Below, piece by piece: positions 1 to 32,533 of a DNA stretch of 64,000 bases (positions are counted from its first letter, which is position 1; each line of letters starts with the position of its first letter). The notes beneath the pieces were generated by a model. That model worked only from the letters and a program-made list of their open reading frames with translations, was not told the origin of the DNA and did no database searches. This stretch comes from Polytrichum commune (taxonomy: Eukaryota > Streptophyta > Polytrichopsida > Polytrichales > Polytrichaceae), in the NCBI GenBank assembly GCA_950295325.1, contig OX485803.1:36037554-36101553 (forward strand), read 5' to 3'. A program made the translations under genes and the position numbers.

Positions 1-8814
<8,814 letters not shown>

Positions 8815-10560: not shown

Positions 10561-10617
10561 ACACCATTTGTTTTGATTTTCTTTGTATTTTGAAGTCTCT
10601 GCTCCCAAGTAGAAAAG

Positions 10618-11037
10618 ATGGCTTGTCCATTATCTTCTCATAAGAAATCAAATGTCATTTCCATGTTGCAGAGAGGGGTTGGTGTTAGAGAAGTGTCAAG
10701 GGGTTTGCATGTAGGTGTTGAAACTGTACACAGGCTTCGAAAGAAATTTGTTTCTACTGTAGAATTATCACATGGAGGTAGACCAAGAAAATTGACTCAT
10801 GCAATGGAACGGTCTTGTGTGTTGGATATGACTAGAAAGAAGCTTAATACTGTTGTAGAGGCTACAAAAAATGTGCAAGAGGCATTTGGGATGCAAGTGT
10901 GTGTTGAAACAGTGAGACATCGCACATTGAAGTTGTTACACATTCGAAGACCACACCAAGCCCACACCAAAGTTTGCGCTCCAGAGCTGATCTACACCAA
11001 AGCTGAGGATTGCACCCACAACCTAGATCTGCATTGA
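10618..11037 (+). pseudogene. Tc1-like transposase N-terminal fragment (helix-turn-helix)
   Basis: The 139-residue frame starts at an ATG and reads like the paired DNA-binding region of Tc1-type transposases. Residues 10-45 resemble a first helix-turn-helix (SMLQRGVGVREVSRGLHVGV ending in ETVHRLRKK). A GGRPRKLT hook follows, then a second helix-turn-helix with VCVETVRHRTLKLLHI near residues 97-112. No DDE/DDD catalytic domain follows. After about residue 115 the sequence becomes repetitive (HTKVCAPELIYTKAED) and stops. Either this is a truncated element or the start of a domesticated DNA-binding protein. The Tc1-like assignment rests on motif shape only. Confidence 0.55.
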
Positions 11038-12289
11038 AGCTGAGAATTGCATCACAGCAGCCCACACCCCGACGTCGTAACCAAGGAAGCCAAGAGAAGT
11101 GAGCTATCTCAACACTTGCAACAGCTGAGAAGCGCATCCGCAACATAGGAGAAGCCACAGATCAGACCACAAAACAAAGAAGCTACTGTCCACAACAACC
11201 TTAGGAGTGAGTGACCAGATCAGAGCTAACACACTCAAAAAGAGACCCTGCACTAACCTTAGGAGTGATTGAGGATATCTTGATACGACTTAGAGATCTT
11301 ATCTTGGGTTCACAGAGAAAGATTTAGAGCTTAGCAAGAATCAAAACTTGTGAGAATTTAGTTCGTCCTTAGTGAGAATCAGAAACATCCACCCGAGCAT
11401 ACTAGCTTTGTGAAGATCGCATAATACTCATAGTTCTAAAGAGTAAGAAGGAGGGAAAATTTATTATAAAAATTTTAAAACAAAAAAAACTTCAGGAGCC
11501 CCCAACTCTGATCCAGAAAAGTAGAAGCAAAGCCAAAGGAGATACCAACCTCCAAAATCAAAAGGTAGAACTAGAATTGAAACCCAACTTAGAAATCTGA
11601 AACATGATTTAGGTAGAAACGAAAATCTTGATACAACTTTAGCACTACTGTAAGAATACATAGCCTCGTACAGTCTTAGTGAAAGAGATCAGAAGTTCCA
11701 ACTCTCCCCCCTTAAGATTCATCTTGAAACGGTGAAGGTTCAACCCCGGAGGAGAGTTGTCCAACATGGGAAGAGAAAGGGGAGGGGGATGACTATTGCC
11801 TTTATTCCCAAGAACCTTGAGATCAGAACTATTGTAACCATTTCGCAACAGATCTGTTTCTACTGGAAGCAATTTCCCTTGGAGCTGTCAACATTCACCA
11901 CCGAAGCTGTTGGGACAGTACCATTTAAGTGTTGTTGTAAGAATAATTTCAAAGAAAGAAAGAACTTTGTTGTCTAAGTACAGGCTGGTGGACACGAGGC
12001 TGTGTTGGGGCACACGAAGTTGTTACTGCAGTGCAACTGAGGTTGCTACTGCTGTTGTTGCTAAACCGAGGTTGCCCCTTTGCTGAACTATTGTCTGATG
12101 GAGGCTTCTGTTGCTACTGAACACACTGCCGAGGGAGCCGTTGCATGTGAAGAAGATACTGCCCGAATATATTAGAGTTCACCAACACTTAGAGTGCTGG
12201 TGGTGGATGTGAAAGTTGTTGTTGCTACCGGATATGGAGTTCTTGTTGTTGCTGGCTGCGAGGTTGCTACACCTAAGCTCACCAGTACC
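11038..12289. other. Repeat-like intergenic DNA, no intact gene
   Basis: Short repeated phrases occur, such as CACTAACCTTAGGAGTGA-type sequence near 11200-11265. Minus-strand (11645-11872) and plus-strand frames have no recognisable domain. The composition suggests an old retroelement flank, but no LTR pair or primer-binding site could be identified. Confidence 0.35.
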
Positions 12290-13914
12290 TAGGTATAACC
12301 CAGACACAATCACAATCCTCGTAACACCAGACCAAAACTGGTATCACAACCTCAACCCCCACGAGGGACCTTTTCCAGTCTCACATGTTATCGCACACTT
12401 CAAAGCTGACACCATCACATACAAAGAACCAACAATTCCACTAGAACTACGTATTGAACCTAGAACAGAAAGTCGCGCCATACACACTCTATGCGTCCAC
12501 CACAAGGCACACCCATTGGATTAGAAGGATATACCCAACAAATGTACAATATTGCTAACACCATCCAAACATATGCAATGTTCACCCAACCTGCACCACC
12601 TACACCGCAAGACACCCCAGTAAACCGTAGTATAAAATGATATAAACTCACATACCCCCCCCCCCCTTCACCCACCTACCACCCAAACCCCCAATACTCC
12701 ACTAATCACCAAAATCGACAGATGTCTACCTCTCAAATACCTACCACAATTATGTTATTACACAATTGGATCATTCAAACCACCTAAAGAAACATCTCAA
12801 GGACATTGGAAACGCGAACAAGCAAGGTATGGTATCTACAACTCTATAAAAAATCTAAAAATTGCAGTAAGACTACCAGGGCTACAAAACATACTACGAG
12901 CAAAAATGATGGCCATACACCACACTCTCCAACTCCTGACCACCACATATCGTGATGAACCAACACATATCTTCACGGATTGCCTCAATGTCCTATATTT
13001 ACTAAACACTCAAAATCAAACACCCCACACTACATAATAGCCACCCCTACAAAAATATCCTTGAATCCATGACCACAATGCTACAATCCCGCAAACAAAT
13101 CATCACACTCCATAAAGTCAAAGCCCATGCTAACATTAATGGCAATGAACAAGCATACACATTAGCCAAATTAGGATGCGAACTAGATCATAGAGACACC
13201 GCAATGCCACATGAACATGCATCATACTACCTCCAAAAAGACTGGTGGCACTCAGTGCAAGAAACACTAGACAAAGGCCCCACATGACACCTTGGAAAAC
13301 ACGTCCTCAAATATGACAAAAACCATAATTTAGAGGTCATAGCTAACCAAACACACCAACTACACAAGTGGCTCGAAAATAAAGATATTGACAAGACATT
13401 ATCAAACAATTCTTGGACAAATCCAAGTATTACGGATAAATTAAAAACATGGCTAATCAAATTCTGAACGCGACGGTACATGGGCCACGCCCTCTCATAA
13501 AAATAAAAAACACATTCCAACAAATTAACATAATCGCCACACAATATGCACACTCAATACTAGTCCATAAACGAAGACTAGAGAACCGACAATCTGTCAC
13601 AGACCTTCAAGACCTAGCATAACTAAATAAACTAACTTATAGCACGGTACACTTTACCCTGTAAAACAATGCCGCTATACTAGATAAACCCCACTAACAA
13701 CAATCACATGCTACCGGGTACCGGTTAACCGGCTATTAGTTATTAATATAGTGTCTACTCTCTACAAAGGGTGAAGTAGTTCTACATCTAACTTCATTGC
13801 CCTAGGGCGTGGCCAAGGATGTTCTACGAACAAACACTCTATTCACACTATTCACTCCAGCCTCCTCCGGAGACCGGAGTTCTTCTTCTTCTTCTTCTTC
13901 TTCTTCTTTGTTTT
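12290..13914 (+). pseudogene. Decayed non-LTR retrotransposon (LINE) with dead RNase H
   Basis: A frameshifted remnant of a LINE ORF. In the frame entered near 12754 it reads YYTIGSFKPPKE...ILRAKMMAIHHTL...IFTDCLNVLYLL, and in another frame LHKVKAHANINGNEQAYTLA (13094-13160). Together these form an RNase H domain. Around 13440 it reads LIKF, a stop and RRYMGHA, then jumps to a tail (NIIATQYAHSILVHKRRLEN, from about 13520) that matches the C-terminus of the second LINE copy at 55.6-56.8 kb. The zinc-knuckle/endonuclease part is therefore deleted. The 3' end is CTCCGGAGACCGGAGTTC followed by a (TTC)n tail ending near 13914. No target duplication was found on the left, so the 5' boundary is approximate. 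Confidence 0.75.
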
Positions 13915-14041
13915 TAGTTGCTAAAAACACGCCTTGAAATAAGATGCTGGAGAATGGGTAAAATCTATCATATCAGTAAACATGTTATTGTTCTTGCATA
14001 GTTAAATCTATACACAAAGGGTCACTTATAAAGCACTATAT

Positions 14042-14366
14042 CACTTAAGGTAGAGGGGCCCTTTCCCGCTCGGGTCCTTAAACCGCTCACTAGACCTATC
14101 CAAACAAGAGGTACATTATAGCTTCCAACCTCAAATTTCTATGTAATCATGGTGTACATTTTTGGGGTGAGTGGTTTTGGGTACCCCTATGAGTTCTCCT
14201 TCCAAAATTCATAACTAATTCAATATTAATCCAAAATTAATTATTCCAATTGGTCCAATTTCCAATGTACTTTGCACATCTTCCAAGATTGATTCACCCT
14301 TAATAACTCCCCAATGAACATGCCAATCTGAAATTCGAGCGGGAAAGGGCCCCTCTACCTTAAGTG
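14042..14366. mobile_element. MITE with 31-bp perfect terminal inverted repeats
   Basis: The first 31 bases (14042-14072, beginning CACTTAAGGTAGAGGGGCCC) are the exact reverse complement of the last 31 (14336-14366, ending CTCTACCTTAAGTG). The 325-bp element has no coding capacity. Flanking bases give no convincing target duplication. If the outer TTAA on each side were the duplicated target, the element would be slightly shorter. The superfamily is not assigned. Confidence 0.8.
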
Positions 14367-16703
14367 GGAAGGAAAATTGAGTGCGAGCCCCTAGGAGTTA
14401 GTACAAAGCGGAAAGACGAAGAAATGGGTTTTCAGGTAGTATGTTAAGGTGAAGTAGAATTTTCCTTGAAAGTGTTGATGGTCCCATCTCAACACACTAG
14501 AACCATGCCACCAAATTGGTTCTAATGAAATCTAACCATTAAAGCACATTGCCTTAATACCCGTATGTTGATAAAATATGTTGATAAGATGATGTTTTCT
14601 TTGGTTCAAATAAAGGGATATCAATATTTACTAATCCATAGGGATTTTGTCCAAATGAGAATAGATGGCACATTGAACTACTTGTGAAACAAAATTGGAT
14701 TAGATATTCCACAAGGAGTTTTCATTTGCTTTTTTTTTTTTTTTTGAAATGGCAAGTGTGTTCAAATCCATGCACAATCGGCAAAACTTTCTTTACTAGT
14801 GGAGCGCAATAAAGACACAAAAATACTTTATAAATGATGGTTCCCATGTCCAATGGTCACTTGTCAACGAAAAAAAATTGTTAGTAACCTTCTATACAAG
14901 ATATTGATGCAATTTACATATGGCTTGGAGAATTTTGGTAAAAAGGACCTATTAGGTCATGTGCACATTCCTTGAACAATCGTGAGCATTAACATTGAAT
15001 GGAAGAATGAAATGCTTACTAGTAGTTGCATGTTGTTTATTTCTTGCATGGCAACTGAACTATTTTCTTTAAAACATACTCACAAACTTGGAATTTTCTG
15101 GAACCTAGTTGAACACAATGTGTATGAACTAGGGAAGGAGAGAAAGAGACAATATAAATGCAAGGAAGAAGGAGGAGATGGAGGAAGGGGGGATGGGAGG
15201 AAAGAAATATAGATCTTCCTTCTTTCTATGAGACAAATGTAGTCAATTTTCCTTGGGGGGCACACTTCCAATATTTTTCAAAAGAAGGTGGAATATAACA
15301 TATGGTGACATTTATTTTTCAAAAGTAAAAATTATAATTAAAAATGATGGCCTTTACACCTAACACTTGGGTGGAAAAAACTTTGCCTACTAGTTTATAG
15401 GTGATTTTTAAAATAAAATTATATGCAACATTTATGGACAAATGTCCCAAGAGAAAAATCAAAGTTTTGTTGAGAAAATATGAAGAAAATGTATGCCAAA
15501 TGAAATTTTCATTGCTATGTTTTTGTGTACCGGAATCTTGAAATATGTCTTTATTACTTCTAGTCCTACTTTCAAAGTTTTTAATTTCTTAAGGTAAATA
15601 TATGGTTATGGATATAAAAGCTCCAGATTTTATAATTAACATACCATCCCATCACAAGGCTTGAAGTCCAATATCATGTAATTATGGGTCCTCAAAATGT
15701 ATGCCAAAAGAATACCCCCTAAAATATGTTGGATATTGCACATGTATGCAACATTTTACACTGGGTGACCCCATGTGCAATTTTTGAATCATATGGCACC
15801 TCTACAAAATACTCTCTAAACATGGTCCTTTATTTATTTCGCAATTTCTTTTTGGTCATTTCATGGTTTATAGTGACTTTACAACCACACAAATGCCTAG
15901 TGTTCTTCGAGCATCTAAGTGTTGCGGTGACTATCTTACTTGGAAGTTATGTTTCCCTACTCGCTACAAACAACTATCCACATGAATTCACCTGCAAATT
16001 GCACTTCCTCATGTGGTTCACATGGTTAAGTGAACTGACGACCAATAGATGAATGCTTCTGATTTTTAGTTTGTAATTTTTTAAATAATTTTCCCATGTT
16101 TCTAGTGCCCCTAATTTCTATATCCCCTCTTATTACAATTATCCTTAAAAGGTCAGATACAAGGCAAAACACGAGAAAAATATCTAGAGTTTCATCATAT
16201 TTTGTATAGTTTGCCTCTCCTTTGTTAGGACCTATAAATAAACACAAGGTTGAGAGGTTTTCCTCCTATTCTTGGCCTTACTAGACTTTTAAACTCGAGT
16301 TTGAGTTTTTTCTTTGGGAACATGTACATTGAACTTGGGAACTTCAATATCCGAAGTATGTGTTCGAAACAAATAGTCTCCAACCAAGAGCACCTCTAAA
16401 CACCGGATGGTTGCACCCAACCTTGGTGAGATCACAAGCTATATACTTTTGTAAACCATGTCCGGTTAGGGATTAATTAAGGATGGGCTATTTATTTAAA
16501 TTTCCTGAATTAATGGCACCCTATTAGTAGATAAAATGGTACTTTGAGGTGTTTGTTAAGACCCTATAGGTAAATATAATCTATACCATGAATTTATTTT
16601 AAAATCTCTATTTTGTGTGGAAACTATACCATTTATCAAAATATTGAAATTTTAACTTATTTTGATGTTAATCCATAACCAAACAACCGCACTACATTAA
16701 CGG
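14367..16703. other. AT-rich intergenic DNA, no gene recognised
   Basis: Several short open frames (14982-15212 and 15726-16052 on plus, 16026-16247 on minus) have no domain signature or splice context. A poly-T run lies near 14731-14745. Nothing is supported here. Confidence 0.4.
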
Positions 16704-17209: not shown

Positions 17210-17322
17210 TTAATTTGGACACCCATATTTGAGTGATATGTGGTTAAGGGTGGATCTAAGAATGGAAACTAGAAAGAACAAGTGTTCAAAAGAGATTGGA
17301 CTACGTGCTCGGAACATGCCAA
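17210..17322 (-). repeat. Dispersed repeat copy 1, distal half, split by the CACTA insertion
   Basis: The reverse complement of this flank (CCACCCTTAACCACATATCA, CTCAAATATGGGTGTCC) matches the 3' part of the repeats at 53758 and 57867 (CACACCTAATCACTTCTCAC, CTCAAATGTATGTGTC). Its proximal half continues on the other side of the transposon. Confidence 0.55.
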
Positions 17323-17351
17323 CACTACAACAGATTGGGTATTTTGTGACT
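17323..17351 (+). repeat. CACTA left terminal inverted repeat
   Basis: 29 bases beginning CACTACAACAGATTGGGTAT, identical to the reverse complement of 32502-32530. The match breaks at the 30th base. This is the expected transposase recognition end. Confidence 0.97.
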
Positions 17352-17960
17352 GTAATTTATGACTGCCTTAAGTAATAAAATCCCAAAATATGACTGACAA
17401 GGCTCCGGATGCGGATGACGCGCGCGGTGACTGGGTCTAGTCATTACCGACGAGTCGCTTCGGACATGAGTCATATGAATATATACGGTTGTGGAGGCGT
17501 ATAAAAGGACAGATTCTACGATCCCCACTGCACGTGGGGCATACCTTGACTAGCCTTGGAGTATGTGCCCTTTTTTGACCTGCCCGGGCAGAAAAAATAC
17601 CAAACCGACGTGGCATGTGACTCCATGTAGTCATGTTTTCTGCTGACGTGTAATATGACTTGCATGTGTCATAATTTTGCTGACGTGGCAAGCCACGTGG
17701 AATGTGACTGCTAGTTTTTTGACTGCTTGTAGTCATGTTTTTTGGGGCGTTGGTCACATTTCCTGCGGGGATGACATTATTGTATGACGTTCTGTAGTCA
17801 TATTCTTAGTAACATGTGATGCATAATGTGACATGATGGAGTGATATTCGCGTAGATGGAGAGTCACATTGTGTAGTTCTTTGTGCGTTGTTGTAACTGT
17901 ATTGAGTTAGATTCGTATTACTTGCAATTTTGAATATCAGTCACATTTTGTGGCACATTC
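17352..17960. repeat. Left subterminal ATGACT/AGTCAT motif region
   Basis: Many TATGACTG, TGTGACT and TAGTCAT copies in both orientations, including paired forms such as GTGACTCCATGTAGTCATG near 17621 and GACTGCTTGTAGTCATG near 17718. In En/Spm the TnpA protein binds repeated short subterminal motifs. These are the obvious candidates for such sites here. Confidence 0.7.
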
Positions 17961-18141
17961 CAAGCAATGACGACACATTCAAGTCATGTGCTACATGACT
18001 GAGCCAAATAAGAAATTGAGCACACAAATTGAGCAGATAAATTTCAATAACTTGAACAATATTATGTAGTCTATGTCTCCAAGCATATCCAAATGTGTTC
18101 ATCTTTCCTACATGATTCCTGAATGCGTAAACTACCAAAAT

Positions 18142-21100
18142 CTAAGTGGTTTGTTGAGCTTCCGGCGGGATAGCCTTCAATGCTTCCACAGGCCACTTGG
18201 TGATGGACTTCAGTGCATCGCCCAGACGCAGCATCGGAGGATCGTCGTCGTTGTTGCCCTCGTACAACAACACGGACTCTGCTCCCGGCTCGATTGAAGA
18301 CACGCAAACTGATATGTTGCCCTCCTCAATGAGGCGCCCGTGGAGTGAGCCTCCTGCAAGGCTCACGATGATGCCTTGCGCCACTACGTTCGCCTTGGCC
18401 TTGTTCTCCTCGTCCAAGTCAAACAATTTGACATTGGACCCCGTGGCCAACGGCAAGAGTGCGTCCTCCACCAACGCATTAGCCGTCTCCGACAATACGA
18501 GAGTGTCATCTTCTGCTTGTGTCTGCAGCAGAAAACGTAATTATCAACAATCAAAACAATCCGCGTGGAGTTACTGGAGCTTCAATACTTAAAATATAAC
18601 CTCACACTAGGCTATGATTGCATAATATGACAGGACATACTCATATAACGCACCGTAGTCATCAGATATGACAACAATGAGTAATATAATTACGACCTAT
18701 AACTGACCATAGTCATATGATTGGATATAGTCATACAACCCATGACTAGCCATAGTCATATGAATGAACATAGTCATATTTCCTATGACTGACCATAGTC
18801 ATATGACTACACAGAGTCATATTGTATGACCACAATAAGTTACATATTCACCTAGGGTCCTCATATTACTTCGTGGAGTGACATACATATGCGGACATAT
18901 GTTATCAACATTTACCTTGTTTGCTATTGGAGTGAGAACCAAATAGAAACAAAATATATCCAAGAGCAGCTTACCTGTGTCGATGAACCCACCAGGTTCG
19001 CAGGTACCGACGCTAGATGGACCTCCTTGGTAAGATACGCCAAGCAATATTCAATATCGGATTGCTTGCGGGCCAATGCTTCGAATGGCCCGCAGATTTT
19101 GCGGAGGAAGTCATCGTTGGGGTTTAGGGGATCCCAAAGCGGAAAGTTTAGGACATTTGAAGAGGGGGGACGCGCCGTCGCCGTTGTATCCCAATCGATT
19201 TGGAGACATCGTGTTGAGTCGTGCGTGGGGTCCGGAATCATATCAAATAGATTGCGAAGGTCTCTTATTGGGTTCTGGAGGGGGTAAGTCCTCCCCCACA
19301 GAAAGCTCCATTGAGTTGTCGTTCCCGATGCAAGAAATGCACCTACAACCTCTAGTACGTTCTGCTCTACGGGGGACCATATCCCGACATCAAAATTAGA
19401 GAACAATATCGACAAAAACTTGTCACAGTCGGTTCTTTTATTTTATTTTTACATTCAGGTCCTTTGCGTGGTGGATCACTAGATCCGGGCCCCACTCTCT
19501 CATATCGTACAGAGGTCTGATATCGCAAAGAAGTCCTACAACATTCAACACTATAATTTTCCTACGCCCGGAGTCCGACACTCTTACCGAGGGGACCTTC
19601 GCAGCTAACGGCTGTATCTTCGGAGCATTGCCAACCTTCTTCTTCTTCTTCTGTGGACTGCCTCCTTTATGTGGCCGTTTTGCCGGCCTCTTCGTCGCAG
19701 GCTCCTCATGGTCTTCGTCCTCCTGCAAGTCCACGGGTTGATCCTGACTCCCTCCAACCGTCATAACCTGGAAGGCCACGACCCAGTAACACTCTAGCGT
19801 TAGATTATGACTCGGCCCTGTCATACATGACTGCTTGTGATAACCTCATGTCATGTTATATGACTGCTACTTCTCATGTTTTATGACTGCAGTGAGTCAT
19901 ATAGTATGACCGCCTATAGTCGTATAACATGACTGCCTAGAGTCATATTATATGACTGCCTACTGTCATATTATGTGACATAGTCATATGACTATCCAAT
20001 GTTGAGGCCAAATTAAAGACATAAAGCTTGCACGTAAGTATAACTATCTGACAAGTATAATGTGCATATGACATGAATGCCAACCTCTTTCTGTCGAGCC
20101 ATTGCATGCTGGGTAGGCCGTGCATCGCGTTCCGCCAATAGCTTCTCCGCTTCGCCCTTCCTCTTCTTGGCTATGGGTTTCTTCTTTTGAATGACGGGTT
20201 GGCAACCCATATCTGCTAGGGTGTTACGCAGGGGCTCCGATGCCGCAATCGACCCAGTATGCCCGGATTCTGCCGACTTCCCAGTTGCCTGCATGTTCTA
20301 ATGATCCACATGAGGCGTGTATTAGTGAACGATCTTCATGCATGACATACAACATGGCTGAAGCAAAGGTGTTCCATACATGTACTCGAAGCGAGTACTA
20401 GAGGGTATACATACGCAACCTTTTCGGCGGTTACTTGGATCACGTCGACTCCCGCTTCCGCCGTGGCTGGCGGTTCCATGTCCGTGGCCGTCGTTCGCTT
20501 CTGCACCTCCAGTAGCAGCTGCTTCACCATAGCCTTCATATCTTCCATCTCCCCCTTCATGCTATCCTGGAAGTCGTGCAGCTCGGTCCGCGTAACAAAG
20601 AGGGCTCTATCTCCCGCTCTTGCATTTGGGAGTGGCCCTCTGGACGATGATGACCGGCCCCGTCCTGATTTCCCGGGTGTCGCTAGCTCGGTCTCCACCT
20701 CCAGCTGTGTCGGGGGCCGCTCTAAATCTGCGGCCTGTGAAAGGAGCAACTGTGGATCCATGAAAAATACGTAAACATACTAAATATGACTAGGTAAAGT
20801 CATATGACTCAGAATATGACTATCTAAAGTCATATTACTCAACATATGACTAGGTGAAGTCATATGACTCTCAAAATGACTAGGTGAAGTCATATGTGTC
20901 TGAATATGACTAGGTGAAGTCATATTCAGGTCACATGTGATTATCTATGGCCATATGACTCACGGTATGACTATGTAAAGTGATATCATTCATTATATGA
21001 CTGAATTGTATGACTGCAGGTTGTCACCTATTTATGTTTGAATGACTTGCACACAAAATCACTTACCAGTCTAGAGCGCACCTCCCCCTCGGACCTTCCA

Positions 21101-23622
21101 GAATACGACATGGTCTGCACGGTCTGCCGTGCGGCTTTCATGCGCGTAGCTTCCGCGATTTTGTCCGTCCGGGCAATTAAACGCTTGAAGTTGTCGACGT
21201 GCACCTTCTTCACATACGGTGGGAGCGGGCCACAACTCTCTATGAGTTTCTTCATGTTTGACTTGCGAGTCCGCATCTGCTTGCGCAAAATCTGGAAAAA
21301 AACAGCTTCAGGCACGTCTCCGAGTCCACCACGGTACTCGAACTGTGCTGCCATCTTGTCTTTAATCGCCAACAACAAGGGCTGTGGGTGTGCCCTGAAG
21401 TTGTCGACGCTCCAGTCGAGGTCGCGAGAGTACCCGCGTAGTCGCGTCAGCCAGTCAGGCCTGTGTATCCCTGTTGGGCACCCGGCCTCGTCGACGTCGA
21501 CCCACAAACGCTGACCACCACTGGAAGTGTGCAGCTCGCCACTCTTCTTCAAGGACCGCCTAAGGTTCTTCAACTTCGACTGTCGATGCCGCGCGTTTCC
21601 GTCGTCACCTTGAACCTCTGCCGTCCGGCCAAGGCAACGCACCTTCTCGCGAAGTTGTGTCGGATCGGCTCCTTTTTGAGCCATACGCCGCAAAATGCTG
21701 ACTTCCCGGAGCTCCAACTCGTCAAGGAGCTCGTTACGATGCCCTGCGCCATCCTCTTCCTCCTCGCTGTCCGCCGATGCGTCGTCGACGTCCATCTCGC
21801 AAACCCGGAGAGTATCTTGCATGTCTTGGGACAGCAGGATATCCTCCTCATCGACCGCCTTGCCCTTCTTTCCACTAGATTGCAACGGCCATGACCTGGG
21901 TTCATTTGCATTTCCCTGCACACCCAGACGTACAATACATTATATGACTGCATGGAGTCACCCTACATGACTGTACTAAGTTACATAATATGACTGGACA
22001 AAGTCATATGATTACCTATAGTCATATGACTACCTATAGTCATATGACTTCCTATAGTCATATGACTACCTATAGTCATATGACTACCTATAGTCATATG
22101 ACTACCTATAGTCATATGACTACCTATAGTCATGTAGCGCGAACCACTGAATGCGGAAGCAAATGCAAGAAACTACGGAGATGTATGTTTTTACCTTCCG
22201 CCTCCTTGGTTTGGGCCGCTCGTCCTCAGAAGTCTCCTCTTCGTCCTCTTCGTCCTCGTCATCATCGAGGTCCGTTTCAGGATGTTGTTTCTTTCCCTTC
22301 GCTCGAGTGGTCACACCCCAGCCACCACCCTGCTCTAGAGATGGGCCCGGCTCTCCCACAGGCACGCCACGGCTGCTCTCAAAAACACGCGCAACCTCAT
22401 TCCCCACTCTCTCCAAAACCGGCAATGAAATTGCCGGGAAACTAGCAATTGTGCGAAATACTTCCACTTGCATGCCATCAGGCAGATTAGCTATTTTTGT
22501 TATCAAATTGACTAGTACATTGTTCATTTCGGCATTTTTGGTGGAAGTCGCGGGAACCACACTGTTCAGTACAAGCGGGGGTTATTAGACGGACATTACA
22601 TCTCACAAAATTGTGACTCCAATACATGCCACAGCTGAAACATGACTCAAATGAGTCATGTGGGTGAAAATTAGTATGACTGGGAGGAGTCATAATCATG
22701 AAATTGTTCACAACATGTAATGAGGATGGTTGAAAATAAAAATTGAAATTGAATGTCTATTACTGGAACTCAGTTCTACACATACACAACACATACACGT
22801 ACACATACACATACACAACACATACACATTGTCAACACATAAAATTGAGTTTGAACCTTTGTGAATTCATCTTACGAAAGGAATATGTAACAAACACATA
22901 CACGTGCTCTAGCTAGTAATAATTGAGTTCCAATGATTCAAACTTTCATTATCATCACGGGCACCAACCAATCATGCATGTGGGCAGCTTAGTTAGCCCT
23001 CACTACATTGTTCCTCAATATGACACCCGAAATATTTAGCCTATGCATTATGGTTTCAATTCCCTTTCAAATTTGGTAACTCTGGACTGTTGGGTAGTAT
23101 GGAATTATTCATTCATTATGTGATGTCAAACAAAAACATTGTTCATACACATGATCATAAATGCACAATCATAGACAACCAATAGAAGCCACATATGATG
23201 CACAACAACAAAGTTGTGGGAAGAAGTTACAATATTTTTAGGACTGGGAAGAGTCATACTCACAAAAATGTGACTGGACTGTGTCATAATGACCTTAAAG
23301 TATGACTACAGTGAGTCATAATATTCTGGACTATGACTACAGGGAGTCATAATACTATGAACTATGACTGCAAACAGTCATGTCTTCGGCAAGTTGTATG
23401 CATTTTATGACTACAAGGACTCATAAATGTTTCAAAATTCAGAAGCAACCCTAGCGGTAGCGGGTCCGTTGTATTAGGGTTTGGTCATACATACCCGGGG
23501 TCCTCAGGCCTCTTGAAATGAGAAGTCCCAATCGGTGACAGACCCAGTTCCCGCAGCTTCTGGTTGTTGGCCTCGATGTTTTTCTTCCGCACCCTCTCAT
23601 ACTCCGGAATTTCCTCCTCCAT
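18142..23622 (-). CDS. CACTA TnpA-like / Ptta-type accessory transposon protein
   Basis: Read on the minus strand as 23622-23495, 22561-22195, 21915-21067, 20749-20420, 20288-20085, 19767-18975 and 18522-18142, all joined in phase by GT-AG introns (about 1015 residues). Exon 1 has the EYERVRKKNIEANNQKLREL pattern common at the start of such plant transposon proteins. Exon 2 ends in acidic then basic tracts. Exon 3 carries the part resembling the plant transposase (Ptta/En-Spm) family, with VHVDNFKRLIARTDKIAEAT near its end. Exon 4 has a probable coiled coil (FQDSMKGEMEDMKAMVKQLL). The last exon (ANVVAQGIIVSLAGG...ISVCVSSIEP) resembles the DUF8039-type domain found in these elements. Exon 6 needs a 1-nt shift near 19440, within an A-rich run, to stay open. 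The protein is probably the DNA-binding partner of the transposase. Exon limits are hand-made. Confidence 0.7.
18600..18840. repeat. ATGACT/AGTCAT cluster in last intron of the minus-strand gene
   Basis: Repeated CATAGTCATATGA phrases alternate with ATGACTGACC copies inside the intron 18523-18974. It is one of several intronic clusters with the same core motif. Confidence 0.75.
19800..20005. repeat. ATGACT/AGTCAT cluster in an intron (19768-20084)
   Basis: Alternating TATGACTGCC and AGAGTCATATTATATGACT phrases at roughly 25-bp spacing, ending near 19994. It lies wholly between two coding exons of the minus-strand gene. Confidence 0.75.
20785..21030. repeat. ATGACT/AGTCAT array in intron 20750-21066, unit about 34 bp
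   Basis: Units of ATATGACTAGGTGAAGTCAT followed by about 14 variable bases repeat at least five times. Each unit holds the inverted pair TGACT...AGTCA, so each can form a short hairpin or bind a dimer. Confidence 0.8.
21940..22135. repeat. 18-bp near-palindromic array, seven copies, in intron 21916-22194
   Basis: The unit CATATGACTACCTATAGT is repeated seven times with very few changes between about 22007 and 22135. Looser TATGACT copies flank it on the left (21940-22000). The unit is almost its own reverse complement. Confidence 0.9.
22640..23430. repeat. First intron of the minus-strand gene with scattered TGACT/AGTCA motifs and an ACACAT microsatellite
   Basis: TGACT/AGTCA pairs occur near 22640-22695 and 23240-23430 (for example ATGACTACAGTGAGTCATAA). 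Near 22780-22850 there is an ACACATACAC-rich simple repeat. No coding sequence was recognised within the intron 22562-23494. Confidence 0.65.
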
Positions 23623-24199
23623 GATTCTACAATACCCAGATGCACATTAGTGTTCATTGAGGACAATAAGGCTGTCCCCATTGCTGCCGTTCCAGCTACA
23701 CCGTGAGCTGCGGAGGTGTCGAACAACCAACACCTCCACAACTGGAAGACACGGAAGTTGCGAATTCAAATGAGCTCACCTTTCTCCTCTTCGTATTACT
23801 TTGTGTGTGTGGGGTATTAGTATGAGGCTTCTATAGGAATCCACTCCGAAACCACATTTACAATCCGAATTATGATTGATCATTTCTCAATTTACATGTC
23901 ATCTTTCAAAGGACAAGTTTTGAGATTTTTGAAGTATTAACATTTAACCTAAAATCTTAGCCTTGGAGATGAGAGAGTGCACAACCTTGGAGAGTGAGAG
24001 AACACGGTAGACAGAGGGAGAGCCCTCCCTCTCAATCTTGAAGAGAGAGACGCTTTGTAGAGGGAGAGATTTGGTGTCCGAATTAGGGGTACCCTCAGCG
24101 TCGAAAGTGAACAAATGCTGCTGGGAAAACCCAGCACTTAAGTACCCACAACACCGAAGTAGAAGAATCTGCACCGAAACCTGCACTATCACAAGCCAC
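23623..24199. promoter_or_regulatory. Upstream region of the minus-strand transposon gene
   Basis: The region 5' of the ATG at 23622 on the minus strand probably holds its promoter and leader. No TATA box is placed with confidence. A minus-strand frame at 23944-24192 is serine/leucine-rich and not recognised. Confidence 0.35.
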
Positions 24200-24560
24200 C
24201 CAGCTCAAATTTGGTCCTTGAACCCAGCACCGAACCCCGCACTCTCACAAGCCACCGAACCCTACACTCTCAGGAAAGCCATACAGAAGTCTGCACCCAG
24301 CCTTTCACAAGCCACCGAACCCAACACTCTCAGGTACCTCCGAACCAAGTTTTGCACCCAGCCTTTCAAAGTAGCTGCCCAATCCGAGGACCCTGCACCG
24401 AATCCACCGAGTTAGAAGAACCCAGCCCTGCACCGAATTGAGCAACCCTGATTAGACTTTGTGGAGAGGTAGAAGAACTCTCACAAGCCACCAAATTGAG
24501 CAACCCTGTTTAGAGTTCAGCCCGAGGTAGAAGAACCCAACACTGGGAAGATGCTCCGAA
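24200..24560 (+). repeat. Imperfect repeats with CACAAGCCACCGAACCC phrases
   Basis: CTCACAAGCCACCGAACCC, CTGCACCCAGCCTTTCA and ACACTCTCAGG phrases recur in irregular order. Plus-strand frames here (for example 24038-24415) only reflect the repeat and are not called as genes. Confidence 0.55.
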
Positions 24561-24659
24561 CCCAGCAAGGGCGATTTCGAATCTGGATGAAGGCCGCAGC
24601 TTTACTTTCGAATCTGGTAGAGGCAAGAGCTTTACACATTCGGCAATGAGAAATCAGAG

Positions 24660-24766
24660 AGAGAACGTAGGGAGGGAGAGAGGAGGGAGGGAGGGGGGGC
24701 GGGGGACCAGATGTGCGCGTGGTGAGGGAGGGAGGGGGAGGGGAGAGAGAGAGAGAGAGGGAGTCT
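24660..24766. repeat. G/A-rich low-complexity tract
   Basis: GAGG, GGGG and (GA)n runs lead into the minisatellite. It could act as a GAGA-like promoter element but no function is shown. Confidence 0.6.
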
Positions 24767-24767
24767 G

Positions 24768-25270
24768 GTGAAAATTAGGCAATCAAGGTGAAAATCGGGC
24801 AATCAGGGTGAAAATTAGGCAATTGGGGTGAAAATTAGGCAATCAGGGTGAAAATTAGGCAATTGGGTGAAAATTAGGCAATCGGGGTGAAAATTAGGCA
24901 ATTGGGTGAAAATTAGGCAATCAGGGTGAAAATCGGGCAATCAGGGCGAAAATTAGGCGACATGGGTTAAAATTAGGCAATAGGGTGAAAATTGGGCGAA
25001 CAAAGTGAAAATTAAGCAACCAAGGTGAAAATTAGGCAATCGGGGTGAAAATTAGGCAATCGGGGTGAAAATTAGGCAATTGGGTGAAAATTAGGCAATC
25101 AAGGTGAAAATCGGGCAATCAGGGTGAAAATTAGGCGACATGGGTTAAAATTAGGCAATAGGGTGAAAATTGGGCGAACAAAGTGAAAATTAGGCAATCA
25201 GGGTGAAAATTAGGCAATTGGGTGAAAATTAGGCAATCAGGTGAAAATTGGGCAATCGAGGTGAAAATTA
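24768..25270 (+). repeat. Minisatellite, about 20-bp unit GTGAAAATTAGGCAATCGGG
   Basis: About two dozen units of 18 to 21 bp, each GTGAAAATTRGGCRA plus a variable GGG/TTG/CAGG end, run almost without break. They lie between the divergent starts of the two CACTA genes. A higher-order repeat is visible: the run containing GACATGGGTTAAAATTAGGC and GCGAACAAAGTGAAAATT appears twice, near 24958 and 25136. Confidence 0.9.
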
Positions 25271-25563
25271 GAGAGAGAGACAGTAATTTTCAGAAATTAT
25301 AAAAAAGGAGTTGGGCCGAAAATAGACCATCAATTTTAATTTGCACGTAAAAAGTTGAAATTTTACATTTTTTATAGTAACAATTATTGGGCTATAAAAA
25401 AGTGAACAAATATTGTCATGGATGATGGATGAGTTCATCCATCAACCAAAGCCCAACATTCTCCCCCCAAGAACTTTCGATTAGTTGTTGTCATGGATGG
25501 TTGAATTTTGGATGAAAAATAAGTGACTATAATTGGAACAGCATAAATCTATAATAACCCAAA

Positions 25564-25914
25564 AAGTGAAAATCAAGGTGAAAAGTGTTATCGTTTTCAA
25601 GAACAGGGTAAAAAGGGGTCCGACTATGGATTTACTTAGGGCCCCATTGAAATTGCTTTTACAAAAAAAGTATGCGCTTCACCACACTTACGTATAACTG
25701 GGGTATATGACTCCCTTGGAATCGATTACGATATATTTAGGGGAAGCTTAAAATTAGGCAAACAAGGTGAAAAATGTTATCGTTTTCAAGAACATGGTAA
25801 AAAGGGGTCCGATTGTGGATTTACTTAGGGCCCCATTGAAAATACTTCCAATAAAAAAGTATGGGTTTCATCACACTTACGTATAACTGGGGTATATGAC
25901 TCGGGTGGAATCGA
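25564..25914 (+). repeat. Direct duplication of about 165 bp
   Basis: Two similar copies, 25564-25724 and 25749-25914, share TTATCGTTTTCAAGAACA, TTTACTTAGGGCCCCATTGA and ACACTTACGTATAACTGGGG. The minisatellite phrase AATTAGGCAAACAAGGTGAA begins the second copy, which ties the duplication to the neighbouring array. Confidence 0.8.
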
Positions 25915-26399
25915 AATTTCTGTTAAGTACTCAAATTTAGAATATCTAAATGAGATTATGAAAACTTATCCCTAAATTTAATGCTCAAAAGAAAAATGTG
26001 TAAATCTGGTTATGGGCGTAAGTTTCATAACCCAAGTTAGTTTGGGCTTCGACTTTTTGAAATTCCTTGAATTTTCTATAAACTTAGGGACATCAGAAAT
26101 AATTCTTCAATTACCATCAATTTAACATAACTCTATTGTAATGGCGAAATTTTGAAATAAATTACTTGTTCAAAACCACGAACTTGCACACCACAACCTT
26201 TGTAAATTAGTATTCTAAAATTTATAATTTGTTGGCTTGACAAGATATAAAGCTAGTACCTATATAGTTTAGATTCACTTTCACCTAAACCACTCCGGAA
26301 CAAGGTGGTAGACATTCTCGTGGTTAACATGTGGTTATTGTGTGAGATTCGCCGTGTGTTGGTTTTGGGTGGGAGACAACAAGGACATTCGTATTCTCA
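25915..26399. other. Non-coding part of the CACTA central region
   Basis: AT-rich sequence with no frame, domain or repeat that I recognise. It precedes the motif cluster upstream of the transposase gene. Confidence 0.4.
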
Positions 26400-26560
26400 C
26401 GCTTTCTAGTCATGAGCTGATGACTGTCGTTCGCTTATATGACTGGCATGTGTTATATGACTCCCGTGGTTATATGACTGACATGTCTTATATGACTCCC
26501 CTGTGTTATATGACTGCCTTGGGTTATTTGACTCCCCTTCCGTATGTATCCACATAGATA
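26400..26560. promoter_or_regulatory. TATATGACT repeats upstream of the transposase gene
   Basis: Five copies of TTATATGACTSSC at about 22-bp spacing lie 90-210 bp before the first transposase ATG at 26649. The same core fills the subterminal regions, so this may be where the accessory protein acts on transcription. Confidence 0.55.
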
Positions 26561-26648
26561 TGTGACTGCGTGCATACGAGCACTTCCTCCTTGTAAGGTA
26601 TTCCCATATCACAAATTGACCCGCCGCGTATGCCGTGCACACCACAGG

Positions 26649-29600
26649 ATGGCAGGAGGGGAGGTCGAAAGTTTGAAGCATCTACAGTTATGGCAAGAAG
26701 AAGAGGTCCAAGCAGACGCAATGCGGCTATCCAAGTACCCATGCCCATGCATGGAGTGTGCAGGAGGGAAAGTCCTCGATCGAGCCACAATTCGAAAGCA
26801 TCTTCGCAGCAAAAAAAGGGACCCTGTGTTTACAGCCTCTATCTTGGTAAGTCATTCCAAGAAACGACTTTTGAATGAGCGTAAGCGGGTGGTCCTGCTT
26901 TGAGCGAGTTTTCATCTTTGTGTACATGAATTTTGTAGGCCCGATGGAGACGCATTGTAAAAGCTGCTTGCAAGACATCCCTGAGAAAGTTTCTAGGAGG
27001 ACACGAAACGCCTTCACAGTCCATGCCAAACACAACGTCTGCAAGAGTACGAGCCTTGCAGACATGGGGGTCAAACGTGTATGACGGACAGTGGTGTGAC
27101 GGGCCCATCCCAAAACTTATAAAGTTTTCATACTGGAATAGAGAATGGGAAGTAAAGGTGTCCAACTTTCCATTCATGGGTTGGGGTCTCTTTGCACTTC
27201 AACCCGCCAAAGAGGGAGAGGAACTGCTCCCATTTGTAGGACCGCAATACACCTTGGGAGAATACAGAGCGTTGAAGAAGGCACAACCTCGAGTGAAGTC
27301 ATATGCGATGCAAGTTGAGCCGGACTTGTACATCGATGGAGATGTAATGAAGGGGAATGTCGTTGGGTTCATAAATAGTTCCATAGGACGCAAAGAAATA
27401 GGAAATGTGGTGTAGGAATTTCGCATGTTGCCCAAACCCTGGAACAAACAGGAATGGGGGTATGTAATCACCATAGCCACAAAGGACATTTTGGTCGGAA
27501 AAGAGTTGTATGCACATTATTCTTTGAACCCGCACACCACATTGTAGGCTGACACCCATTAGTCCATATTAGGAATGACCAAAGTGCGTCATGTGTTCAC
27601 TAACACGACTACACCAAGTCATGTTTTATTTTGACAAAATTTTGTATACATGTCCGGACCATGGTATACATGTGTACGTGGAACATGACAATTTTTTTAA
27701 ATCCATTGTTTGTACATGTATGTTGCATAAAATTTATTTTACCTGACACACTCTTGTCTTCATAATCGCCCAACACCCCCCCCCACGCATGTTACACGTT
27801 CATGTTATATTCGGCGTTTTATGATTGCCCCTCGTTAGAAACAGCGCGCATTTTATGACAGAATCATGTAATACAGAAATCACAAATTTATGACTCATCC
27901 ATGTGATACAAAACTACTTGTGATTGCTCCTTGTCGTTTTCTTACATTTGTATATAATATGTCCATGTTATTTACAATTCGTGTTCTATGATTGTCATTG
28001 TTATGAGTCCTTGTCCTATGTTTCTGTCAAAGCGAAAATATATAACATGCGCACAAATTTATCACTCTCTGCAGGACGAGTACAACCCGATTGACTTGTA
28101 CTCCCACGCACCCCGGACTGGGCAAAGAAACCAGACATACTGTAACACAAACGATGGACAAGCTGGAGAAGTTGAGGTTCTACGTATGGTGGCAGAGTGC
28201 TTCGGCAAGTACGATGGCCTTAAATTTGACGGACACGAAACCGAAGCCACCATACACGAGGGACTTGGGGATGCATTGGTTGAAGACGTTGAAGGGGAGG
28301 ATGGTTTCACAACGAAGGACAGTGAAGGTAGCGAGGGGGAAAGGGAAGAAATGAATGACCCCATGGAAACAAGAGGGAGTACCATGAACAGTGAGGACCC
28401 CAGTGGGGTAGACCACCATAATCTCTTATGCGAAGCTGGAACTCCACTTTATGAGGGAAGCCCCTCGAACCGTCTCACATCGACACTCTTGATACTTTTG
28501 TGTTGCACCACCTTCGCCGTACCAAACAACTTTGTGGATGAGTTGTTGAAGTTGTTGAAGCAAACAATTTTACCCAATGACAACACACTACCGAAATCAT
28601 TTAACGAGGCGAAAGGCTTGTTGATGAAGTTGGGGTTGTCCTACAACTCAATACATGCTTGCAGAGATGGATGTTGTTTGTTTCGGAAAGAATTGGAGGA
28701 TGCAATGGAGTGCCCAACATGCCACAAATCGCGCTTTGTAGAGAACTCCAATACTATTCCAGTCAAAGTTTTGAGACATTTTCCTTTGATTCCTCGTTTG
28801 CGAAGGATGTACAACTGCACGCGGATCGCGGAGCTAATGAAGTGGCATGTAGGAGGGAAAAGTAAGGACAAGGTGATGAGGTCCGTGGTGGACTCGAAGG
28901 CTTGGGACCACGTAAATAATAGGTGGCCGTGGTTTGCGGAAGATGAACGGAACGTTAGGCTTGGCCTTGCACTGGATGGCGTAAATCCGTTTAGGAACCA
29001 AAGTCTCAGCCACTCTACTTGGCCCGTGGTCATGCTGAACTACAATCTCCCCCCTTGGTTAGTGACCAAAAACTTCTTCATGATGCTTGCGCTAATCATA
29101 CCAGGAAAAGAGAGTGTGAAGGACAGGAACGTGAATGTGTACATGGCACCTTTGATTGAGGAGCTCCAAGAGCTTTGGAAAGGGATCGACTGCTTGGACG
29201 GATCGCAAGGAAACTCCAAAGAGAAAACATTTAAGCTACATGGCATGCTTTTGTGGACGGTGAATGACTTCCCGGCGTACGGTTTGATTTCCGGGCAAGT
29301 AACAAAAGGACATAGGGCTTGCCCCGTGTGTGGCCCCAACGTGGCAACACGGCGTTCCAAAGCGTTGAAAAAGAATGTTTACCTTGGACATAGACGACAA
29401 TTGCCAATGACCCACCAATGGAGACGACAGAGGTCCAATTTTGATGGGCAGCCGGAGATGAGACCACCGCCAAGAAGGATGAGTGATCGAGAGCAATTGC
29501 GATATGCGAACGAGCGAGAAGAGTGGACGAAAAAACACTACGGAAAACAAACTGGGCAGACGACAGACCCCGTACACGAACATGGAGTGAAGAGGAGGAC

Positions 29601-31875
29601 ATGTCTATATGACCTTCCATACTGGAAAGTACGTGTATATTATTAGCCGAATTAAGGGAGTGGACGTAGTCATATGATTGCATATAGTAATATTGTTTAT
29701 GAGTATTATGTGAGTAGACGTAGTCATGTACAGTCACATGATTGCACGTAGTGATATTGTGATTTGTTGTCACAAATTTCTCACTGGCTCGAGTCACTGT
29801 GCAGGATCTTCTAATTCGACACACACTGGATGTTATGCACTGTGAGAAAAATATCGCTGAGAATGTGATGAAAACCATATTTGGAGAGAATGATACACTT
29901 GGAGTTCGTCTAGACATGAAGGAGGCAGGTATACGCCCGCATCTTTGGCCCGTAGCAGGAACAAAACCCGGTAGCGTGATTCTACCTCGGTCCTCGTACG
30001 TTATGACGAAAGAAGAGCGTGAAGTCTTTGTGGAGCAAGTGCGTGCACTGCGAACCCCCACTCACTATGTGGGACAGTTGAAGAAGCGCGTAAACGTGGA
30101 TGGGACAATGAAAGGCCCGAAATCCCATGACTACCATGTCCTCATGCAGCAAGTGTTGGCACTATGTGTCCGCTGCACAATGGAAAAGGAAGTGCGGACA
30201 TCAATAATAATGTTGAGCCGTGTATTCAGGAGGGTGTGTGCTAAGTCCATTGATCCCGCAACAATACACGAGATGAGGTGTGAAGCGGCCATAGCACTAT
30301 GCATGTTGGAAAAAAAATTCCCGCCATCAATTTTTGACATCATGAGCCATTTGGTCCTGCATCTCGTGGAGGAAGTGGAAATTTGTGGACCCGTACATAC
30401 ACGTTGGATGTACCCTATAGAGAGGTACCTGAAGACTCTAAAAGGGTATGTCCGAAACCGTACTCGACCAGAGGGTTGCATGGCTGAAGGCTATGCCATA
30501 GTAGAAGCATTGGAATTTTGTACGGAGTATATGCAAGAATATACAGTCACCACTCGAAGAGTGTGGGATGACAAAGAAGACCCCTCAATGTATGATGAGA
30601 TCCTCGAAGGTGGCGAGCGGGCGCGTCATCTCCCATCCGACCTTCGACAATGGATACATGAGTTCGTGGTGAACAATGCGGCACCACTGGAAGAGTGGAG
30701 GAGATGAGTTCACATTGTAGTAGAAGAACCTTAAATGCACCAACTCTCTTAGAATAACAGTGGAGTCCATACGAACTACAACAAAATTCATCTTTTGTGA
30801 CCAAAATTCATGACTGCACTCAGTTATATTTTGGGATTTATGACTGAGTACAATCACAAAATGTAGTCGTAAAATATGCATTTCGTTGTAGTTATCGCGA
30901 CACGGCACGACTACTGCTGTATGCATAATATGACTGTCCTTAGTGATTTCAGCATGTCACGGGTAATGATGTGTTGGGTTGTATCCAAAATGCAGGAAAC
31001 ACGAGGATGACATGTCACGGCGGGAATGTGAGCGGCACGAATACAGGCGCAAGAAGCGGAAGGCGCGGGTAATGTACCCAGCGGAGTTGCGCGACGAGGA
31101 TTTCCACATTTGGTTTCCAAAAGCAGTGGTGCGTGCCATAGAAAAAGGGACTGAGGAGGTACAAGAAGACGTTCGGGCCTTGATGTTACCTCCATCGGAA
31201 GCAGCGAAGTCGTATCGATCCATGTATGCGTTTGAAAACCACATCCGTGTCCGAAGCGCACAGGCGCAATTGACAACGATGGACTCTGGGGTGGCCGCAA
31301 CATTTCGACAATTATGTCGCTCGGGCCTGAAGGACACAAATCCAAAGGCAGCGGAGTTGGAGTATGTGGGTTGGGTTGAGGAAATCCTCTCTGTGGACTA
31401 TGGATTCTTCGAGGTGGTGGTCCTCTATTGCAATTGGGTCGTTGCAAACATTAAGGGAGATGGGGCGACGATGAAGCGCGACGACTATGGTTTCACCATT
31501 GTAAACTTTGACAGATTGATTCCTTACTCAACACAATCGTTTGCCTTTCCTCTCCATATCGAACAAGTTTTTTTTGCACCTGACGTCGCGAATCGTGGAT
31601 GGGAAGTTGTTTTGCGCAAGGAACCGAGAGGGGTTCGGGTATTCTCCAAACAACAAAGAACGGATGAAGTACAATGCATAGCACTAGGTAGGACTTCTGA
31701 TTTTCCCGGATTACAAGTGACAGCCTTACATGACGATATCGTACCGAAGACACCCATATTGGGCGATGCAGTGGAAGTAGGGCCAGGAGTGGTTGCCAAG
31801 GCATTAGAATGTCTAGAGGGACCGGACGACGCATCGGTAGATGACTCCGAGCTTTGCGACTCGGACGGTGATTGA
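26649..31875 (+). CDS. CACTA TnpD-like transposase (TNP2, DUF4218-like, DUF4216-like)
   Basis: Exons read as 26649-26846, 28075-29628, 29805-30694 and 30996-31875, all in phase (about 1173 residues without the SET exon). Exon 1 has a Cys/His segment (YPCPCMECAGG...TIRKHL) like the transposase-associated N-terminal domain. Exon 2 is the TNP2/Transposase_21 core: PLYEGSPSNRL, a CPTCHKSRF knuckle, LRHFPLIPRLRRMY, RNVRLGLALDGVNPF, YNLPPWLVTK and WTVNDFPAYGLISG with ACPVC. It ends LPYWK, which runs into LLIRHTLDVMHCEKNI in exon 3 as in the family. Exon 3 is DUF4218-like. The last exon is DUF4216-like (YVGWVEEILSVDYGFFEVVV...EQVFFAPDV). The final splice (GA|GTGGAG to AG|GAAACAC) keeps the frame open, and without it a TGA falls at 30705. 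The product should excise and insert the element. Coding capacity looks intact. Confidence 0.88.
26939..27547 (+). pseudogene. SET-domain (lysine methyltransferase-like) exon inside the CACTA transposase gene
   Basis: An exon following TTTTGTAG|GC reads, in phase with transposase exon 1, a linker and then a SET core: FPFMGWGLFALQP, EGEELLPFVGPQYTLGEY, YAMQVEPDLYIDGDVMKGN, VVGFINSSIGRK, GYVITIATKDILVGKELYAHY, ending LNPHTTL and TAG at 27545. SET domains use an N-H-S motif and a late E-L-x-x-x-Y to bind AdoMet and shape the active site. Here the first is N-S-S and the second is present. One in-frame TAG (27413-27415) falls in the middle, yet recognisable SET sequence continues after it in the same frame, so it looks like a recent point change. 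No good donor links it to the TNP2 exon, so it could be a separate zinc-SET transcript, a fusion exon or a captured fragment. Confidence 0.75.
27548..28074 (+). other. Gap between the SET exon and the TNP2 exon
   Basis: AT-rich, with a C-run at 27776-27785 and scattered degenerate motifs (TTTATGACTCATCC, ATGATTGCCC). It probably functions as intron sequence, ending at the acceptor CTCTCTGCAG before 28075. Confidence 0.5.
29640..29790. repeat. TAGTCATATGATTG motifs in transposase intron 29629-29804
   Basis: Copies such as GTAGTCATATGATTGCATAT and GTAGTCATG...CACATGATTGCACGTAGTGA show the same inverted core, somewhat decayed (ATGATT instead of ATGACT). Confidence 0.65.
30800..30960. repeat. 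ATGACT/AGTCA motifs in transposase intron 30695-30995
   Basis: CATGACTGCACTCAGTTATA, TTATGACTGAGTACAATCA and ATATGACTGTCCTTAGTGAT appear in a region that must be intron for the transposase frame to stay open. Confidence 0.65.
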
Positions 31876-32239
31876 CTTCCCGTCCGAGCAAGAAGTTGTA
31901 TAAATGAAACTTAGGTGGGTATATATTTAAGTTCAATTATATACACGTTCAATTAGTCTCTTGGCAATAGTAAAAATCAAATTTCCTCCCCAATTTCCCC
32001 CCTATACTCCCTAAAACATCAATCAATTAATTATTCAATAAATAAACATGGGCCATTCCCAATTTTCATTGTCGTTCATACTATAACACACAAAGTACTT
32101 AATTTTGACCAAAATCTTTCATTATTAAATAAATAATCCAAACCATAATACTAGATAATGAGTCATGGGGCAAAAACACAAGAGGCCCGTCTAGGGCAGC
32201 CTGAATTATCAAGGGCTGCCCAAAAAAAGGAAAAAAATG

Positions 32240-32501
32240 GTCCTAGTCAGAATGTGACTGAAGAATATGACTCGCAGAAAAATGTGACTGCCACATATGA
32301 CTGGGCGTCCACCATACACGTTCCCCGTCGTTCCCTATAATGGCAGTCGTCGTTCCCATATGCCGTATACAGTACATTTGCCGAATACGACAGTAAAATA
32401 TGACTGCGAGTCATATTTTTGAATTTCGTACACCCCAAAGGTCGAGGCCTGGAAAAATGTGACTGCATGTAGTCACCAGTCATCCCCAGTCATATTTCCC
32501 T
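32240..32501. repeat. Right subterminal ATGACT/AGTCAT motif region
   Basis: Copies such as AATGTGACTGAAGAATATGA, ATATGACTGCGAGTCATAT and GTGACTGCATGTAGTCACC lead up to the right end. They mirror the left subterminal region and are likely protein-binding sites needed for transposition. Confidence 0.7.
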
Positions 32502-32530
32502 AGTCACAAAATACCCAATCTGTTGTAGTG
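32502..32530 (-). repeat. CACTA right terminal inverted repeat
   Basis: Ends in AATCTGTTGTAGTG on the plus strand and is the exact reverse complement of the left end. It is followed directly by the CAA target copy. Confidence 0.97.
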
Positions 32531-32533
32531 CAA

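Follow-up and report, generated by a model that had tools for sequence, protein, structure and literature searches.

The 64,000-nucleotide stretch of Polytrichum commune DNA analysed here (the window) contains a whole CACTA (En/Spm) transposon, in which an exon encoding a SET domain lies between the zinc-type exon 1 and the TNP2 exon of the transposase gene, inside CACTA ends bordered by a CAA duplication, as a first-pass annotation of this DNA had placed it (Table 1). That annotation had also proposed that the SET domain travels inside the element, which is supported by profile and fold searches, by copy number and fixed position in the genome, and by the selection on the exon.

The element and its SET exon

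The element has the terminal inverted repeats, the 3-bp target-site duplication and the TNP2 domain of CACTA (En/Spm) transposons. Its CACTA-type ends (CACTACAACAG...) are identical left and right at 29 of 29 terminal bases, the element ends of the window copy, CACTACAACAGATTGGGTATTTTGTGACT, are both bordered by CAA, and the TNP2 domain (PF02992) of the window scored 242.7 bits in Pfam against a cut-off of 28.6. Four further copies were retrieved with long flanks for comparison of the ends; two are complete, with the target-site duplications TCC and AAA, one has its 3' end, its 5' end lying beyond the stretch retrieved, and in one neither end was found. Because the two complete copies have the same ends as the window copy and distinct duplications, the SET-carrying unit accounts for at least three insertions. 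Identity of these two to the window copy is 94.5-94.7% over element positions 9113-15208 and 89.4-91.4% over positions 1-6353; for positions 6354-9112 (window 23676-26434), none of the four further copies gave a match of more than 250 bases. A tandem array of GTGAAAATTAGGCAATC-like units was seen by eye at window 24740-25280, inside this unmatched stretch. CACTA elements have short subterminal repeats; here the heptamer TATGACT, counted together with its complement, is present 77 times within the 15.2 kb of the element vs 3 times in the 48.8 kb of flanks, spread over the whole element and not confined to its ends.

The SET exon translates into a SET-like protein with the motifs GWGLFA, EGEELLPF, YIDGDV...GFIN and KDILVGKELYAHY, the usual SET motifs being of the GxG, RFINH and ELxxDY types. 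These landmarks had been listed in the first-pass annotation and are present, but an in-frame TAG at 27413-27415 had gone unreported, and KDILVGKELYAHY lies behind this stop in the window copy. The profile search which that annotation had suggested gave 33.6 bits (E 5.8e-8) for Pfam SET (PF00856, cut-off 22.4) when the stop was read as X, and 19.8 bits, under the cut-off, for the part before the stop. The structure model relied on was a second one, built from 69 sequences including P0047, a relative of the SET-like protein at locus L052 described below; it has a SET fold, and the nearest folds in a search with this predicted model were active lysine methyltransferases. SET proteins were also among the fold matches of the first model (20 sequences; predicted local distance difference test score, pLDDT, 55.9), which was not relied on.

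In the window copy, phase 0 holds throughout, at the end of exon 1, for the SET frame at its acceptor (26937-26938) and for the TNP2 exon at 28078, in agreement with the earlier statement that the SET exon is in phase with the first transposase exon. In lineage A, that of the window copy, for which the 30 best SET matches were aligned, the exon 1 donor GT, the SET acceptor AG and the same SET stop TAG are present in 30 of 30 copies, and the TNP2 acceptor is kept in 29. In lineage B, exon 1 ends in ATATTG followed by gt, the SET exon opens in phase 0 directly after TGTAG, and a candidate phase-0 TNP2 acceptor is common to the copies examined. The same exon order and donor were found in lineages C (three loci) and D (one locus), with a phase-0 acceptor chosen by eye. 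Furthermore, the stretch just behind the SET acceptor can be aligned across lineages A, B and C and the metagenome protein P0017. Exon 1 of the window also gave a U-box match (23.1 bits, cut-off 21.4), which was taken as a zinc-like chance match because the other three exon 1 sequences gave 15.8 bits or were unlisted.

Table 1. Features of the CACTA element, in window coordinates
Feature	Position	Strand	Basis
Exon 1, 66 aa, CPCxxC...HL zinc-type	26649..26846	+	phase-0 donor at 26847; PF13963 below cut-off
Inferred 92-nt intron, exon 1 to SET exon	26847..26938	+	GT/AG in 30/30 aligned copies
SET exon, 202 codons plus terminal stop TAG (27545-27547)	26939..27547	+	translation, profile, alignment
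In-frame TAG interrupting SET in the window copy	27413..27415	+	SET open in 18/30 aligned copies
TNP2 transposase exon, PF02992, 242.7 bits	28078..29628	+	phase-0 acceptor; 3' donor by eye
Transposase C-terminal frame with DUF4218 (PF13960, 125.3 bits)	29805..30707	+	start by eye
Last transposase-region coding frame with DUF4216 (PF13952, 30.3 bits; cut-off 30.6)	30970..31875	+	open frame; Pfam just below cut-off
Whole CACTA element, 15,208 bp	17323..32530	+	ends and duplication; two further complete copies, each with a duplication of its own
Left 3-bp target-site duplication CAA	17320..17322		same as 32531-32533
Left terminal inverted repeat, CACTACAACAGATTGGG...	17323..17351	+	29/29 bases in common with right end
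Right terminal inverted repeat	32502..32530	-	29-base identity with left end
Right 3-bp target-site duplication CAA	32531..32533		same as 17320-17322
Second, multi-exon gene region	18142..23765	-	bounded by its outermost open frames

Copies, relatives and selection

The genome searched comprises 408 Mb in 64 contigs, seven of them of 42-78 Mb. The search with the window SET scored 150 of 189 candidates, and its counts are therefore lower bounds; 41 of the 150 matches are at least 80% identical to the window SET, 5 are 65-79%, 46 are 50-64%, 39 are 40-49% and 19 are less identical. An exon 1 was listed at most 2 kb upstream on the same strand for 104 of the 150 (35/41, 5/5, 39/46, 21/39 and 4/19 from the closest band to the most distant), and none was listed on the opposite strand within 3 kb of any of them. 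In this genome, the Pfam SET search, which scored 150 of 155 candidates, listed 119 SET matches, 90 of which overlap a match of the window-SET search and 82 of which have a listed exon 1 at most 2.5 kb upstream. Among the 150 matches listed for exon 1 (150 scored of 405 candidates), 101 are followed by a SET within 3 kb; of the remaining 49, 19 have a listed TNP2. In the TNP2 search (84 rows from 83 scored of 729 candidates, one lineage A copy being split into two rows), SET lies upstream of TNP2 in 40 of 44 listed rows of lineage A, in 21 of 21 of lineages B and C, and in 0 of 19 of a third group. No listed pair of SET and exon 1 is on opposite strands, and no listed pair of SET and TNP2 is out of order. 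The SET match is not a chance one, since so many copies in the genome have exon 1 upstream on the same strand. The first-pass annotation had suggested a search for CACTA copies with and without the exon; both kinds were found, and the exon is not absent from the relatives of the window element.

The SETs of lineages B and C are 53-57% and 50-53% identical to that of the window, and the SET of lineage D is 54% identical over a part. Lineages A, B1, B2 and C are recovered in the SET tree, with L052, D and three metagenome sequences on long branches. At the one SET-less locus that was read, L051, TNP2 follows directly after exon 1 with no SET between them, and in the TNP2 tree, which was midpoint-rooted, has a weak A+B branch (79/74) and includes D as a partial, long-branched row, L051 is sister to lineage C (97/96). 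Because A, B, C and D carry SET, a loss in L051 is simpler than several gains. Among the lineage B and C stretches, element ends were found just for a deleted copy, L037, the other stretches perhaps being too short. This short lineage B element (3167-6041, on the SET strand), bordered by CAA duplications at its CACTA ends, retains exon 1 and SET and gave no TNP2 match; its SET frame continues directly into the DUF4216 region. Short SET matches at 30-40% identity, for example those at C6:9212764, C3:17252307 and C5:35666564, each contain several stops, lack a listed exon 1 or TNP2 in their vicinity, and are perhaps relics of older element lineages.

Beyond this genome, public SET relatives numbered 46, and then 94 proteins (86-229 aa) in a second search. 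This protein search is limited to sequences between 0.55 and 1.75 times as long as the query and with short words in common with it, so that longer host SET proteins could not appear. The metagenome protein P0017 has matches only 49-58% identical in this genome and is therefore probably from another species, and the protein P0005 likewise has a best identity of only 78% here. No relative outside this genome was found in the searches of viral contigs and genome contigs. Neither an exon 1 nor a TNP2 was listed near 42 of the 150 SET matches, and no close host donor gene was recognised either among these, of which L052 was the only one read, or in the length-limited protein search. L052 (132-1109) encodes a 326-aa SET-like protein in a single frame, about 36% identical to the element SETs over the SET part; one public relative was found, 94% identical over 56% of L052. 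In the SET tree L052 has a very long branch. It was followed as a possible host donor of SET and stays unexplained.

The ratio of nonsynonymous to synonymous substitutions (dN/dS, Nei-Gojobori) in lineage A was 0.42 for SET and 0.36 for SET without its first 28 codons, whereas exon 1 had a ratio of 0.29, the opening part of TNP2 one of 0.51 and intron 2, treated as codons, one of 0.90. When the SET sequence was translated in its two alternative frames, the values were 0.69 and 1.02. Between B1 and B2 it was 0.173 for SET (3 vs 4 copies), 0.125 for codons 42-198 and 0.51 for codons 1-41, with 0.148 for TNP2 (2 vs 4 copies) and 0.088 for exon 1 (3 vs 3 copies) among the alignable copies. From these values, SET appears to be under about the same constraint as the transposase. 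SET is also less diverged than TNP2 in lineage A, but this contrast was not used as evidence, because SET similarity had guided the choice of copies.

Six of the seven frames of the opposite-strand gene are 88-96% identical in the two other full copies and the outermost is 76-78% identical (tblastn). One of its frames, 18924-19442, came just short of the cut-off for an NIF/FCP1-like phosphatase (21.7 vs 21.8 bits); such phosphatases usually have a DxD motif, which by eye looks replaced here. The flanks of the element contain NAC (NAM) and CHD-type frames, which identify the host as a plant. A 147-aa frame at window 10594-11034 weakly resembles a helix-turn-helix transposase, with 21 bits against a cut-off of 24.9, and is possibly a transposon remnant.

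SET as a probable gene of the element

On balance, we favour the reading that the window element is one copy of a long-lived CACTA lineage in which a SET gene is a normal part of the gene set, with two spliced products and with the SET protein aiding the element. This reading builds on the SET fold, on the fixed position, phase and spacing of the exon, on its amplification with CACTA ends, on the purifying selection and on the SET-less sister lineage. Exon 1 would be spliced in phase either to the SET exon, with its own stop, or past SET to the TNP2 exon; since the phase-0 joints match, one exon 1 could serve both a zinc-type-SET protein and the transposase. The outcome would be two proteins with a common N-terminus, the transposase and a SET protein about 268 residues long. 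This N-terminus would most likely serve to recruit the SET protein, either to the DNA of the element itself or to the transposase complex, where the SET protein may methylate a histone tail or the transposition machinery and so keep the element expressed, a benefit through which SET would be retained by selection. The two products are what we infer from the joints; catalysis, substrate and benefit are likewise proposed, and an effect of the SET on histone marks, which had been suggested earlier, is offered as a hypothesis.

Several observations weigh against this reading. The SET of the window copy is broken by a stop, and 12 of the 30 aligned lineage A copies are not open (18, the window copy not among them, are open to the terminal stop), while the frame is shifted or interrupted in the three lineage C loci and the one lineage D locus that were read. 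The choice of copies favoured good SET protein matches, and in several cases an open SET frame, which biases the SET dN/dS somewhat low. Codons 1-28 of the lineage A SET have a dN/dS of 1.08; this linker looks unconstrained, and a later start methionine is possible. Exon 1 fell below the cut-off for the transposase-associated domain (PF13963) in all four sequences tested. Activity is uncertain on two counts: the histidine of the NH motif is serine in 20 of 20 A1 sequences, and only a short stretch follows the last SET motif, with no post-SET cysteine cluster. In addition, the 19 listed TNP2 rows without a listed SET indicate that SET is not needed for amplification.

Other explanations can be set beside this one. 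The SET could be a pseudo-enzyme or act on something other than histones, as a partner or regulator of the transposase and not a chromatin writer, in line with the serine, the missing post-SET and the exon in common with the transposase; however, GWG, the asparagine of FIN and the tyrosine of ELxxxY are invariant in the 20 A1 sequences, and the fold neighbours of the model are active lysine methyltransferases; we hold this explanation doubtful. It is also unlikely that SET, as a real and selected gene of the element, is made from its own transcript or from an internal methionine and not as an exon 1-SET protein. Such methionines do stand just ahead of the conserved part (codon 29 in the window copy, codon 42 in lineage B and also codon 15 in B2), the predicted metagenome SET proteins begin at them, and an internal start would agree with the unconstrained linker of lineage A. 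In contrast, the residues back to the acceptor are those that can be aligned between lineages A, B and C and P0017, codons 1-41 of lineage B gave the lower ratio of 0.51, and the lineages that were read retain the donor, the acceptor and the phase and have no start methionine in common in that stretch.

A recently captured host gene fragment, carried as a Pack-CACTA passenger, is very improbable, and the host-gene capture that the first-pass annotation had allowed for is not supported in its recent form. CACTA elements do capture gene fragments, and a host relative could hide among the 42 SET matches without a listed exon 1 or TNP2; however, captured sequence in Pack-CACTA varies among elements, whereas this SET, 50-100% identical to that of the window, keeps the same position in lineages A-D and has a dN/dS as low as that of the transposase. 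The deep common position speaks against a recent capture and is compatible with an old one. The parallel drawn earlier with SETMAR, in which SET and TNP2 would form one polypeptide, has to be given up: although the two are adjacent exons on the same strand, in phase with exon 1, SET ends in its own stop in every aligned lineage A copy, and a stop directly follows the domain in seven lineage B copies, which refutes the fusion unless an unseen donor inside SET is used and leaves it scarcely credible.

If SET is instead a normal gene of the element, as we favour, it may tentatively be proposed that it is a self-aimed chromatin writer, in which alternative splicing would put the N-terminal module of the transposase on a SET methyltransferase; the element would thereby direct the enzyme to its own DNA to write a mark that keeps it active. 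If true, this would be a split of one transposase gene, made by splicing, into a cutter and a writer. Hosts silence transposons by histone and DNA marks, and some transposons counter this. The constraint on SET across lineages, and probably in more than one species, suggests that the element gains from a methyltransferase-type protein, and with SET-bearing and SET-less lineages in one genome, an anti-silencing role of a transposon histone methyltransferase is directly testable. For annotation, element SETs (82 of the 119 listed Pfam SET matches having exon 1 upstream) would inflate counts of host SET genes.

Comparison with known systems

In the parts of the literature covered by our search, which lay outside Repbase itself and subscription journals, neither a CACTA element nor any plant transposon was named as carrying a SET gene. 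According to PMC12730594, a SET lysine methyltransferase is encoded by HarbingerS and MuDR transposons in Phytophthora. Like the moss element, these are DNA transposons carrying a SET gene; they differ in belonging to other transposase superfamilies and in their oomycete host, the comparison being one of descriptions and not of SET sequences. Kojima and Jurka (2014) in Repbase Reports is reportedly their source. The moss element is not a HarbingerS, since its transposase is TNP2 and it has CACTA ends and a 3-bp duplication.

PMC12730594 also describes fungal EnSpm elements that carry TET/JBP, proposed to let them escape silencing, and a plant VANDAL/MuDR that encodes a regulator of its own silencing. 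The fungal elements are, like the moss element, of CACTA type with their own enzyme for chromatin or DNA marks, but this enzyme is a DNA-methylcytosine dioxygenase and not a SET, and the host is a fungus. VANDAL/MuDR is comparable as a DNA transposon of plants whose accessory protein affects the silencing of the element, and differs in superfamily; its regulator is not known to have a SET domain. In En/Spm, tnpA and tnpD arise from one transcription unit by alternative splicing, which would be the same arrangement of a CACTA element with two proteins from common sequence, and neither product is known to be a SET protein. In SETMAR/Metnase of primates, a host SET gene and an inactive mariner transposase make up a single fused protein. 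It shares with the moss element the presence of SET and transposase in one locus, whereas the moss SET would be a separate product within an element that amplifies.
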